A stretch of DNA of 36,752 nucleotides from Acetobacteraceae bacterium. GTDB lineage: Bacteria; Pseudomonadota; Alphaproteobacteria; Acetobacterales; Acetobacteraceae. The notes beneath the pieces were generated by a model. It did no database searches, was not told the DNA's origin, and saw only the letters and a program-made list of their open reading frames with translations. Position numbers and translations under genes: made by a program. This document shows positions 29,396-33,227 of this stretch, piece after piece. The stretch covers positions 1 through 36,752 of the forward strand of contig CANJJS010000051.1 of the NCBI GenBank assembly GCA_947474705.1, given 5' to 3'. Within the stretch, counting starts at the first letter, position 1, and each line of letters opens with the position of its first letter.

Positions 29396-29752
29396 ATGGA
29401 AATTCCCGCTGGACTAAAGCCTGGACTCTGGGGCGCGGCGGCTGGCGCGATCGGCATGGCCATCGTCGGCTTCTCCCAACTCGGATGGATCACCGCGACG
29501 ACATCGGAAAAACAGGCGCAGGAAACAGCGGGAACCGCGGTCATCGCCGCGCTTCTGCCGTATTGCGTGACAAAAGCGAAAGCCGATCCCAACCCGGCGA
29601 CACTGGCGAAGTTTCAGGCGGAACAATCCTCCTATTCCCGCGCCGATATCGTCATGAAGGCCGGTTGGGCGTCGCAGGATGGCAAAACCACGGGCAACGA
29701 TGCGCTCGCCCGCGCCTGCGCCGACAAACTCCACGTCGCCAAGACCGGTTGA
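29396..29752 (+). CDS. Conserved hypothetical protein with one membrane segment
   Basis: A 118-residue protein. Residues 10-32 (LWGAAAGAIGMAIVGFSQLGW) form one hydrophobic segment, probably an N-terminal anchor with the rest in the periplasm. The remainder has two conserved-looking cysteines (LPYCVTKAKA, and ARACADKLH near the end) that could form a disulfide, and a SRADIVMKAGWAS stretch. I recall similar uncharacterised proteins in Rhizobiales and Rhodospirillales but know no function. The ribosome site is A-rich rather than GGAGG. It is ten bases before the FYDLN-acid gene, so they may be co-transcribed. Confidence 0.75.
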   Translation: MEIPAGLKPGLWGAAAGAIGMAIVGFSQLGWITATTSEKQAQETAGTAVIAALLPYCVTKAKADPNPATLAKFQAEQSSYSRADIVMKAGWASQDGKTTGNDALARACADKLHVAKTG

Positions 29753-29762
29753 GGACGGGCCG

Positions 29763-30104
29763 ATGAGCAAGCCGGAATTCGGCGTCAAATATACCTGCGA
29801 AGCCTGTGCCGAACGGTTCTACGACCTGAACAGAACGCCAGTGGTCTGCTTCAAATGCCACGCGGTGCAGGCGCCCCCCAAACCGCGCATGTACCGTCCG
29901 CTGCGCGCCGCCTCCGATCGCGGTGCCTTCGGCCGCCGGGCGCCGCCCGTTCTGGCGGAGGAGAAAACGGACGCCGCCGACGATCTGGCGGTGGACGACG
30001 CGGAGGACGCCGAAGCGCCGGACGACGACAACGACCTCGACGACGATGTGGACGTCGAGATCGAAGTGGAAGTCGACCCGGACGATGGCAAGATCCTGGT
30101 TTGA
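29763..30104 (+). CDS. FYDLN-acid domain protein (TIGR02300 family)
   Basis: A 113-residue protein typical of alphaproteobacteria. The N-terminus is a zinc ribbon, KYTCEACAERFYDLN...CFKC, with two CxxC knuckles around the FYDLN motif. The C-terminal half is extremely acidic: about half of the last 45 residues are Asp or Glu (DDDNDLDDDVDVEIEVEVDPDD). Function is unknown; the layout suggests nucleic-acid or protein contacts through the ribbon. The start ATG has GAGG behind the stop of the preceding gene. A bidirectional terminator follows. Confidence 0.92.
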   Translation: MSKPEFGVKYTCEACAERFYDLNRTPVVCFKCHAVQAPPKPRMYRPLRAASDRGAFGRRAPPVLAEEKTDAADDLAVDDAEDAEAPDDDNDLDDDVDVEIEVEVDPDDGKILV

Positions 30105-30108
30105 CAAA

Positions 30109-30131
30109 GGCGCGGGCACGCTGCCCGCGCC
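30109..30131. terminator. Bidirectional terminator hairpin between convergent genes
   Basis: A perfect 10-bp stem, GGCGCGGGCA (30109-30118) and TGCCCGCGCC (30122-30131), with a three-base loop lies between the FYDLN-acid gene and the convergent Sec-containing Rdx gene. The plus side is followed by CTTCTCT and the minus side by TTTGTC, short pyrimidine or T tracts, so it can serve both operons. Confidence 0.7.
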
Positions 30132-30137
30132 CTTCTC

Positions 30138-30356
30138 TCATTGTATCGCCGCCAGCACCTGGTCCGCTGTCGGGAAAGCGCCGGTTTTCTTCTTCGAATA
30201 ACCGAGCCGCCCATCGACGACAATTTCGAACACCCCGCCACCCGAGCGGCGCAGCGTGACATTCGCGGTTTTGTCGGCTTTCAGAATACGATCCCTCGCC
30301 TCACGGGCGCGGCCCTCGTAGCCTCACATGCCGCAATATTCGATTTCCACGTTCAT
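30138..30356 (-). CDS. SelT/SelW/SelH (Rdx) family selenoprotein with in-frame TGA (Sec)
   Basis: Reading through one TGA gives a 72-residue thioredoxin-like Rdx protein. It starts MNVEIEYCGM, then the TGA (30324-30326), then GYEGRAREARDRILKA, and later GGGVFEIVVDGRLGYSKKKTG, the whole layout of SelW (whose motif is C-G-A-U). C8 and U11 form the CxxU redox motif, and the TGA falls exactly on the known Sec position. AGGAG lies seven bases before the ATG and the glnD stop is 15 bases upstream, so it is the last gene of the yejF-mutS-glnD unit. A SECIS-like stem-loop follows the TGA. A nonsense mutation is the main alternative, but the frame after the TGA is fully conserved. Ordinary gene calling would miss or split it. 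Confidence 0.88.
30294..30312 (-). promoter_or_regulatory. Candidate bacterial SECIS element
   Basis: On the minus strand, CGCC (30309-30306) pairs with GGCG (30300-30297) around the five-base loop CGTGA, and two more pairs follow after a G/A mismatch (30312-30311 with 30295-30294). The loop has G in its second position, 20 bases after the TGA. A short stem, small loop, early G and a 16-37 base distance are the known features of bacterial SECIS elements that recruit SelB. A competing GGGC/GCCC stem overlaps it. Confidence 0.55.
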
Positions 30357-30371
30357 ATGTTGTCTCCTGGT

Positions 30372-33227
30372 TCAGGCCGCCGCCGCCCGGCGGGGACGGC
30401 GGGTTCTCGGAATATCGCCATCCGTTCCGGACGTGGCGGGCGCGGCGTCGTCCGGGCTGGCCAGCGCCTTTAACAGCGCCTCGCGCAATCCGGCGAGCTT
30501 CCTCTCGTTCTCGACCTTCAACCCAAAAATATCCTTGACGTAGAACACGTCGACCGCGCGTACGCCATAGGTCGTGACATGCGCGGAGGCGATCTGGATG
30601 CCCTGTTCGCTGATCGCCGCCGTGACGTCGTGCAGAAGTCCGGGCCTGTCGCGGCCGTTGACCTCCAGGATCGTGTGTGTGTTGGAGGCGTGATTGTCGA
30701 CCACCACCCGCGGCGGCGCATGGATCGCGCGCATCCGCTTGCCGTAGGTGTCGCGCGACAATTTGCGGATTTCCTGCGTCAGCCGGATGCGACCCGACAG
30801 CGCCTGTTCGATCAGCGCCGAGAGTTTCGCCAGCCGGTGCGGTTGTTCGAAGGTTCCGCCCGCCGCGTCCTGGATCCAGAATGTGTCGAGCGCCATGCCA
30901 TTCGTCATGGTGTGAATGCGCGCGTCGACGATCGAGGCGCCGGCCACGGCCAGGGCGCCGGAGATTTTGCTGAAAAGCCCCGGGTGGTCGGCGGCGTAAA
31001 CCGTGACTTCCGTGACGGCGCGTGCGGGGAGCGGTTGCGTGTCCACGGTCAGCGGCGATTGCCGCTGGTCCGCGTCGCGCAGCAACCGCGCGTGCCGCGC
31101 ATGGGTCTCGGGATCGAAGGACAGCCAGTAGCCGGGATAGCCCAGGTCGGAGAACCAGGTTTTGTCCTCGCCGGACCAGCCCAAGAGCAGCCCGCCCGCC
31201 GCCTGTTTCGCGCGTTGGACGCGGACGTCGCGCTCCGTGGTGGACAGGCCGCCCGCCAGAACCTCGGCGACCCGGTGGTAGAGTTCGCGCAGCAGCGTCG
31301 CCTTCCAGCCGTTCCAGACTTTCGAGGACACGGCGCGCATATCGGCCACGGTCAGGATAAGAAGCAGCCGCAGGCGTTCCGGGGATTGAATGGTTTCGGC
31401 GAGATCGAGAATCGTTTTGGGATCGTCGATATCGCGTTTGAAGGCGGTCGTGGTGAACAGCAAATGATGCAGCACCAGCCAGGAGACGGTTTCGGTTTCT
31501 TCCGCCGTCATGCCCAGGGCGGGACAAACTTCCAGGGCCAGGTCCGCGCCGAGTTCGGAATGATCGCCGCCTCGCCCCTTGCAGATGTCGTGCATGATCA
31601 TCGCCATGTACAACGCCCGCCGCGACTCGATCTGTTCGATCAGTTCCGACGCCACGGGCGCGATTTCGGACAATTCGCCGCGTTCCATGGAGTTGAGGAT
31701 TTTGACGGCCTCAATGGTGTGCTCGTCGACGGTGAAGATGTGGTAGGTGTCGAACTGCATCTGGCCGACGATGCGGCCCCAGTCGGGCATGTAACGGCCG
31801 AAGAAGCCGGTTTCGTTCAGGATGGTCAGCCATTTGGCGCCATCGGGGTGATTGGTCGGGGGGCGTTCGCCGGGCCGGTCGCCGGGCCGGCGTTTTTCCG
31901 GTGGTTTGCCGCAGAGCAGATCCATGAACAGCGTCGCCGCGCGCGGGTCGTCGCGGAGGGAGACGGCGCGGCGTTCGTTCTGGATGAAGGAGCGGATGGT
32001 CAGCGGGTGCAGGTCGAGATTGCGGTCGCGGGCCACGCGCAGAACGCGAAGCATTTGCAGGGGCTCGGTGTCGAAATCGCGGCCCGCGAGGGGCAGCAGC
32101 TTGCCTTCCGCCAGCACGAAGCCGCTGTCCATCAGGGCTTTGTCCGTCTCCGCCTCGATGGCGGGCGGGCCGAGGGCGGCGCGGAGGATGGCGGGTTCGA
32201 GGATGCGGGTCAGGCGGGCGATGTCGCGGGCATTGAGGAAATAGTGGCGCATGAAACGTTCGACGCCGTCCTGCTTGCCGTGGCGCGTGTAGCCCATGCG
32301 CGCGCCGACGACGGGTTGCAGATCGAATGTCAGGCGTTCCTCCGCGCGTCCGGCGACGTAATGGAGGTGGAAGCGCACGGTCCACAGGAACTCCCAGGCG
32401 CGGCGGCCGTGGCGGGCTTCCTGCTGGGTCAGAATCCCGCCGAGGTCGGCGAGTTCGCCCATGGTTTGCGTGTCGAAGACGTAACGGGCGATCCAGTACA
32501 ATGTCTGGATATCTCGGAGGCCGCCGCGTCCTTCCTTGACGTTGGGTTCCACCATGAAGGGGCTGTCGCCGTAGCGGCGGTGGCGCACGGCGCGTTCGCC
32601 CTGTTTCGCGGCGACGTAATCGGCGACGCCCGCGTCCTTGCAGGCGGCGCGGAAGCGGCGGTGGAAGTCGGCGAACAGCGGTTTGTCGCCGGTGACGTGG
32701 CGGGCGTCGAGCAGGGCGGTGCGGATCGTCGTGTCTTTCGCGCCTTCGACCAGGCAGTCCTCGATGGAGCGTGTCGCGTGGCCGACTTTCAGGCCGAGGT
32801 CCCAGAGGAAATACAGCATGTATTCCACGGTCCGCAGTGTTTCCGGATCCGGTTCCTCGCTGGTCAGAAACAGCAGGTCGATGTCGCTGAAGGGTGCGAG
32901 GACTCCGCGTCCGTAGCCGCCGGTCGCCGCGACGCTGAGGACGGTGGGCGCGGTCAGTCCGGTGTCGCGGGTCGCGTGTTCGAACAATCCGGACACGACG
33001 CCATCGACCAGCGCGCCCAGCAAGCGGGCCGCCTGTAGGCCGGTGAGTTGTTCCTGTTCGAAGGCCTGGCGGACATAGGTCTGGATGCGGGCCAGATGGC
33101 GGCGGAAGGCGCCCAGGGCGGCCTCGCGCGGGATGGGCGATTCTTCGGCCGCGAGTGCCGCGAGGGCGTCGGAGAGTTGCGCCGCGGCCGCCTCGGGCGC
33201 CTTCGGCATGGGGATCGGGGTCAGCAT
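30372..33227 (-). CDS. glnD: Bifunctional uridylyltransferase/uridylyl-removing enzyme (PII)
   Basis: A 951-residue nitrogen sensor that adds UMP to PII proteins when glutamine is low and removes it when glutamine is high. Domains in order: nucleotidyltransferase (GGYGRGVLAPFSDIDLLFL near 107-125, G-x-G-R plus the DxD pair), the GlnD-type helical region (GRGGLRDIQTLYWIARY), the HD phosphohydrolase (MIMHDICKGRGGDHSE near 540) and two ACT domains (about 735 and 850: VYAADHPGLFSKISGALA and VNGRDRPGLLHDVTAAIS). All catalytic signatures are present. It is 28 bases behind mutS, a common alphaproteobacterial pairing. Confidence 0.97.
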   Translation of the reverse strand: MLTPIPMPKAPEAAAAQLSDALAALAAEESPIPREAALGAFRRHLARIQTYVRQAFEQEQLTGLQAARLLGALVDGVVSGLFEHATRDTGLTAPTVLSVAATGGYGRGVLAPFSDIDLLFLTSEEPDPETLRTVEYMLYFLWDLGLKVGHATRSIEDCLVEGAKDTTIRTALLDARHVTGDKPLFADFHRRFRAACKDAGVADYVAAKQGERAVRHRRYGDSPFMVEPNVKEGRGGLRDIQTLYWIARYVFDTQTMGELADLGGILTQQEARHGRRAWEFLWTVRFHLHYVAGRAEERLTFDLQPVVGARMGYTRHGKQDGVERFMRHYFLNARDIARLTRILEPAILRAALGPPAIEAETDKALMDSGFVLAEGKLLPLAGRDFDTEPLQMLRVLRVARDRNLDLHPLTIRSFIQNERRAVSLRDDPRAATLFMDLLCGKPPEKRRPGDRPGERPPTNHPDGAKWLTILNETGFFGRYMPDWGRIVGQMQFDTYHIFTVDEHTIEAVKILNSMERGELSEIAPVASELIEQIESRRALYMAMIMHDICKGRGGDHSELGADLALEVCPALGMTAEETETVSWLVLHHLLFTTTAFKRDIDDPKTILDLAETIQSPERLRLLLILTVADMRAVSSKVWNGWKATLLRELYHRVAEVLAGGLSTTERDVRVQRAKQAAGGLLLGWSGEDKTWFSDLGYPGYWLSFDPETHARHARLLRDADQRQSPLTVDTQPLPARAVTEVTVYAADHPGLFSKISGALAVAGASIVDARIHTMTNGMALDTFWIQDAAGGTFEQPHRLAKLSALIEQALSGRIRLTQEIRKLSRDTYGKRMRAIHAPPRVVVDNHASNTHTILEVNGRDRPGLLHDVTAAISEQGIQIASAHVTTYGVRAVDVFYVKDIFGLKVENERKLAGLREALLKALASPDDAAPATSGTDGDIPRTRRPRRAAAA

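Follow-up and report, generated by a model that had tools for sequence, protein, structure and literature searches.

Does the TGA that splits a short reading frame behind glnD, in a 36,752-nucleotide stretch of Acetobacteraceae DNA (hereafter the window), mark a broken gene, or is it a codon for selenocysteine (Sec)? The original prediction, made from the letters of the window, took the second view and proposed a hidden SelW/Rdx selenoprotein. By comparing the locus with related genomes, we arrive at a probability of about 95% that the window gene is a functional SelW-like/Rdx selenoprotein gene with UGA codon 11 decoded as Sec.

Results

The reading frame and its flanks

The gene lies on the minus strand at 30138..30356 and specifies, when read through, a 72-residue protein whose residue 11 would be Sec. 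Its start ATG (30354-30356, minus) follows an AGGAG ribosome binding site (30364..30368, minus) at a spacer of 7 nt, the in-frame TGA (30324..30326, minus) is codon 11 and completes the motif C-G-M-U, and a further TGA (30138-30140, minus) is the stop codon. Gene content, coordinates and each of these elements agree with the original prediction, which had left the strand unstated; a plus-strand reading of 30138-30356 yields no Rdx-like protein and was rejected. The prediction placed the TGA at the "second position" of the CxxU motif, which is right for the second redox position and inexact as wording, the TGA being the fourth residue of the motif.

Behind the stop codon, a hairpin at 30103..30137 (minus) has two 16-nt arms that are 88% complementary and separated by 3 nt. 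It had been called a terminator, and the hairpin is indeed present, but only a short T-run follows it and a terminator scan did not list the hairpin at 30103-30137, which leaves it a candidate terminator. Directly upstream, 15 nt away, lies glnD, encoding protein-PII uridylyltransferase (30372..33227, minus; NF003467, 1205.7 bits against a cut-off of 959), and the two genes may be co-transcribed. On the other side, a gene of the TIGR02300 family (29679-30104, plus; 46.9 bits, cut-off 41.65), whose product has an acidic tail, converges on selW. Counting the window's own, 3 of the 19 selW-like genes found in the genus sample have glnD as a neighbor, and the same number show the order glnD-selW-TIGR02300.

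The read-through protein belongs to the Rdx family

The read-through protein matches Pfam Rdx (PF10262) with 63.9 bits against a cut-off of 22.6, over model positions 1–72 of 74, and TIGR02174 (CXXU_selWTH) with 51.7 bits against 34.2. This near full-length match, interrupted by one in-frame TGA, bears out the proposed membership in the SelW/Rdx family. The best NCBIfam match is NF041051 (SelTWH_Campy, SelT/SelW/SelH family (seleno)protein), covering 69 of 70 positions with 69.5 bits; this is below the cut-off of 88 bits, so the window protein is no equivalog of that group. Among solved structures, the closest PDB entries by sequence were 2ljk (C17orf37, E 1.4e-7) and 2fa8 (E 1.8e-6), both of which we take to be Rdx-type entries, followed by 2obk ("SelT/selW/selH selenoprotein domain", E 0.0011) and 2npb (Selenoprotein W, E 0.082). 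By sequence, the solved proteins closest to the window protein are C17orf37 and Atu0228; Selenoprotein W is a weaker match.

A thioredoxin-like fold and redox chemistry are traits of the Rdx/SelW family, and the window protein carries its CxxU motif, C8-G-M-U11, near the N-terminus. The Cys-Gly-Met-Sec motif could form a selenenylsulfide, and the product probably acts as a thiol-selenol oxidoreductase, a role suggested by its family and motif.

The TGA is conserved in the genus and followed by constrained sequence

We searched a genus sample of 33 genomes, the window's own included, which are drafts in many contigs. An Rdx match was found in 19 of the 33, and every one of the 19 genes has exactly one TGA, at the same codon. 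The original prediction had named TGT or TGC at this codon in close relatives as the mark of a nonsense mutation; a Cys codon occurs at the Sec position in 0 of the 19 genus genes, and no stop-free Rdx gene was found among the 33 genomes. Downstream of the TGA, third-position differences in the 19 genes are 2.2–2.4 times those at positions 1 and 2, and dN/dS between the window gene and each of the 18 others ranges from 0.09 to 0.56, values that we read as purifying selection acting on the part behind the TGA. Because of this third-position excess and these dN/dS values, a fresh nonsense mutation is strongly disfavored.

Cys forms do exist more widely. In a family sample of 299 genomes, own genus included and five genomes shared with the genus set, Rdx was found in 74: 33 with the TGA form, 40 with a stop-free form and one with only the piece behind the Sec region. 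Thirty of the 40 stop-free genes were read, and all 30 have CTQC, CTRC or CVRC. These Cys-type proteins share the Pfam family and hold Cys at the Sec position (30/30 read of 40), but they are only distantly similar to the window protein, with 37–38% identity at most, and none was found in the genus sample. The expectation that most alphaproteobacterial relatives have Cys is thus borne out in part within the family, the level that we sampled: the stop-free form is present in 40 of the 74 Rdx genomes, but the TGA form in 33. A search of a named collection returned 11 loci; four are in Acetobacteraceae metagenome-assembled genomes (L087-L090), with 64–73% identity in the part behind Sec, and the rest belong to more distant bacteria.

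The existence of Cys-type Rdx in the family is what could suggest that the window gene is such a gene struck by a nonsense mutation, as a pseudogene or through a sequencing error. Given a TGA in 19 of 19 genus genes, the lack of any stop-free Rdx in the 33 genomes, the purifying selection and the Sec machinery described below, we attach hardly any credence to this explanation.

The genome holds a complete set of Sec genes

The genome of the window (5.48 Mb in 205 contigs, 99.27% complete, 3.2% contamination) encodes selA (C4:21399-22724, 553 bits), selC (C4:22759-22850, tRNA-Sec with 69.1 bits; tRNA-SeC with anticodon tca in ARAGORN), selD (contig C7, 312 bits) and two full selB genes scoring 379 and 361.5 bits, located at G000:C47:28780-30651 (L010) and G000:C67:4478-6322 (L011). 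The organism is therefore equipped for Sec, as the original prediction had supposed, and selB and selC, whose absence would have spoken against it, are both there. The selC gene sits directly behind selA (L002 / L036, G000:C4:21399-22850), away from both selB genes. Two more tRNAs score narrowly above the tRNA-Sec cut-off, but ARAGORN assigns them to tRNA-Ser.

In the genus sample, selA is above the cut-off in 27 of 33 genomes and selB at E 1e-80 in 25 of 33. Among the draft genomes that bear the TGA gene, a selA match was absent in 2 of 19 in the genus (G023 and G029), and a SelB match was absent at the cut-offs used in 7 of 47, these too being drafts in many contigs. Four genomes of the family sample (G129, G034, G316 and G272) have a TGA-containing SelW and no SelB match at E 1e-75, G129 being given as 100% complete. 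A third, very different SelB type was also seen (L081 and L082, in G008:C128 and G003:C60, and L245, in G110:C43); in G008 and G003 its gene adjoins selA.

With the machinery present, the TGA conserved in 19 of 19 genes and purifying selection downstream of it, a true SelW/Rdx selenoprotein gene is very probable. The UGA at codon 11 would be decoded by the cell's own SelA, SelC and SelD together with a SelB, which the hairpin just after the UGA may guide. Ordinary suppression, or insertion of an amino acid other than Sec, would also read through the TGA, and the weak fold of the candidate SECIS leaves some room for this, the case for Sec being built from sequence; the codon nevertheless coincides with the position where the family is known to carry Sec, in a genome with tRNA-Sec (anticodon TCA), SelA, SelB and SelD, and we consider such a readthrough very improbable.

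Codon choice at the predicted hairpin tip is a better signal than the fold

By the usual rule for placing the tip, a bacterial SECIS element is a hairpin that follows the UGA immediately and whose apical loop begins with G. In the window, the TGA and a candidate SECIS stem-loop span 30280..30326 (minus), and the predicted tip GCCCGU (30303-30308) begins 16 nt after the TGA. The downstream RNA folds with –17.3 kcal/mol (z –1.12), so that the fold alone is not significant, and the RNAalifold consensus keeps 4 pairs with no compensatory change. A 12-pair stem drawn by hand on one homologue has 86.6% of its cells paired, compared with 24.5–51.4% for slid versions, but it is equalled by 123 of 500 shuffles and its covariation is not above that of the shuffles. 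Codon usage is more telling: of the 14 genus genes that encode Arg at codon +7 after the TGA, 13 use CGT, versus 15 of 107 for the other Arg codons of the 19 genus selW genes, an excess as expected under selection on the RNA itself. The codons at the predicted tip look constrained, and codon choice is a better signal than the fold.

Two SelB lineages in one genome

Aligned over 635 columns, the two SelB proteins of the window's genome share 40% identity. Each comprises the GTPase, barrel and winged-helix parts. Two SelB were found in 8 of the 25 SelB-bearing genus genomes, each pair consisting of type A and another type. In a tree of 91 SelB rows, a quick tree without bootstrap, as were all our SelB trees, clade A (24 rows, support 99) and clade B' (10 rows, support 100) both include a protein of the window's genome. 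The A + B' pairing recurs in other genus genomes and in two other genera. Across the family sample, 8 of 75 SelB genomes, from five genera with the window's own counted, have two copies, a count that may be too low as the search scored four candidates per genome.

SelB-A and the SelW tip

Of the 24 genomes with SelB-A, 20 also have SelW, compared with 20 of the 55 typed genomes that lack SelB-A (Fisher 1.7e-4); 14 of the 93 SelB genomes were untyped, none of which is in the SelW list. Codons +6/+7 of SelW are GCC CGT in 20 of 20 SelB-A genomes versus 3 of 20 with another SelB only (Fisher 2.6e-8), and also in 3 of the 7 SelW genomes without a SelB match. When only Arg codons are compared, the counts are 20/20 for SelB-A and 3/10 for the others (Fisher 5.9e-5). 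Three divergent SelB proteins that fall beside clade A (G049, G212 and G070) were left outside type A in these counts; the SelW of G070 lacks the CGT tip. When codons +6/+7 are left out of the SelW tree, it gives two supported independent contrasts and five in all; over 200 random pairings, an average of 1.8 show the tip going in the same direction and none in the reverse, which puts significance out of reach.

One idea, which would add to the Sec reading of the window gene, is a division of labor in which SelB-A is specialized for the SelW SECIS (tip GCCCGU) and the second SelB serves other mRNAs. Several observations point this way. Pairs occur in about a third of the SelB-bearing genus genomes (the 8 of 25 above), each time as A plus another type, and also in four further genera, and both SelW and its GCC CGT tip go with SelB-A (20/24 vs 20/55 and 20/20 vs 3/20). 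Sec formate dehydrogenases of relatives carry a different tip (AGTCT in 7 of 8 read, AGTTT in 1 of 8), and in G018 and G032 the Sec formate dehydrogenase gene shares a contig with a type-B selB some 3 kb away. Against it, the association is confounded by shared descent, being reduced to between two (supported) and five independent contrasts, four SelB-A genomes have no SelW, and three SelW genomes of the comparison group carry GCC CGT too, although they lack SelB-A. Moreover, G002 and G017 hold both SelW and a Sec formate dehydrogenase with a type-B SelB as the sole one found, and one SelB may therefore serve both. Searches of the window's own genome, among formate dehydrogenase matches and in the selA/selB/selD neighborhoods, found no target for a second SelB. 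On balance, we regard this specialization of SelB-A as a tentative and rather unlikely proposal.

Search for further selenoproteins

Formate dehydrogenase was considered as a second selenoprotein in the window's own genome and rejected, with no TGA in the matched stretches: TIGR01591 matched 13 stretches, none with an internal stop, and TIGR01553 had no match at E 1e-100. Elsewhere, L107 (G020:C105:3387-6428) is a TIGR01553-type formate dehydrogenase without an internal stop, in a genome, G020, without a selA or selB match, and perhaps represents a Sec-to-Cys change. A first scan for conserved in-frame TGAs near selA, selB and selD (19 loci) returned mostly shadow frames among the matches listed. 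A stricter scan of these neighborhoods (30 loci) gave 17 rows, none selenoprotein-like by eye, most being ordinary TGA gene ends (of selA, selB and other genes) and a few weak short matches.

Discussion

The family to which we assign the window gene is well established: SelW-like proteins with a CxxU motif are known bacterial selenoproteins, with 10 in the SelW-like row of the table in the part of a 2006 survey available to us (PMC1794560), and 427 SelW-like sequences are counted in the corresponding part of a study of Global Ocean Sampling data (PMC2398784). The window gene resembles these proteins in its HMM family, in its Sec site and in having Sec without a Cys form in Sec-using relatives, which agrees with the statement, in the same portion of the survey, that Cys homologues of SelW-like proteins are very few or lacking altogether in organisms that contain Sec (PMC1794560). 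It differs from them in being alphaproteobacterial, with Acetobacteraceae as its named relatives, whereas FdhA is given there as the only selenoprotein of Sec-decoding Alphaproteobacteria (PMC1794560), and its place behind glnD (3/19) is local. We found no literature on Acetobacteraceae selenoproteins, nor on two selB lineages in one bacterium, in searches that covered subscription journals poorly.

The Sec machinery of Alphaproteobacteria has shown another oddity, a SelB gene with selC nested inside it (Mukai 2021, PMC8124441). The window's genome differs from that arrangement, its selC lying behind selA and both selB genes on other contigs, and the part of that article available to us describes no genome with two selB lineages, unlike the one studied here (PMC8124441).

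As a member of a known selenoprotein family, the window gene is unremarkable; what is less ordinary is the pairing of SelB lineages. The gene would represent a further known selenoprotein, with the UGA dividing its frame, in a class where the consulted part of the survey gave only formate dehydrogenase (PMC1794560).

If the link between SelB and SelW holds, the natural SelB pairs and the constrained SelW tip would make SelB-SECIS specificity testable. To our knowledge, it is usual to assume a single code per organism for the recognition of SECIS elements by SelB; two SECIS codes, if true, would mean that the Sec code is divided within a single bacterium.
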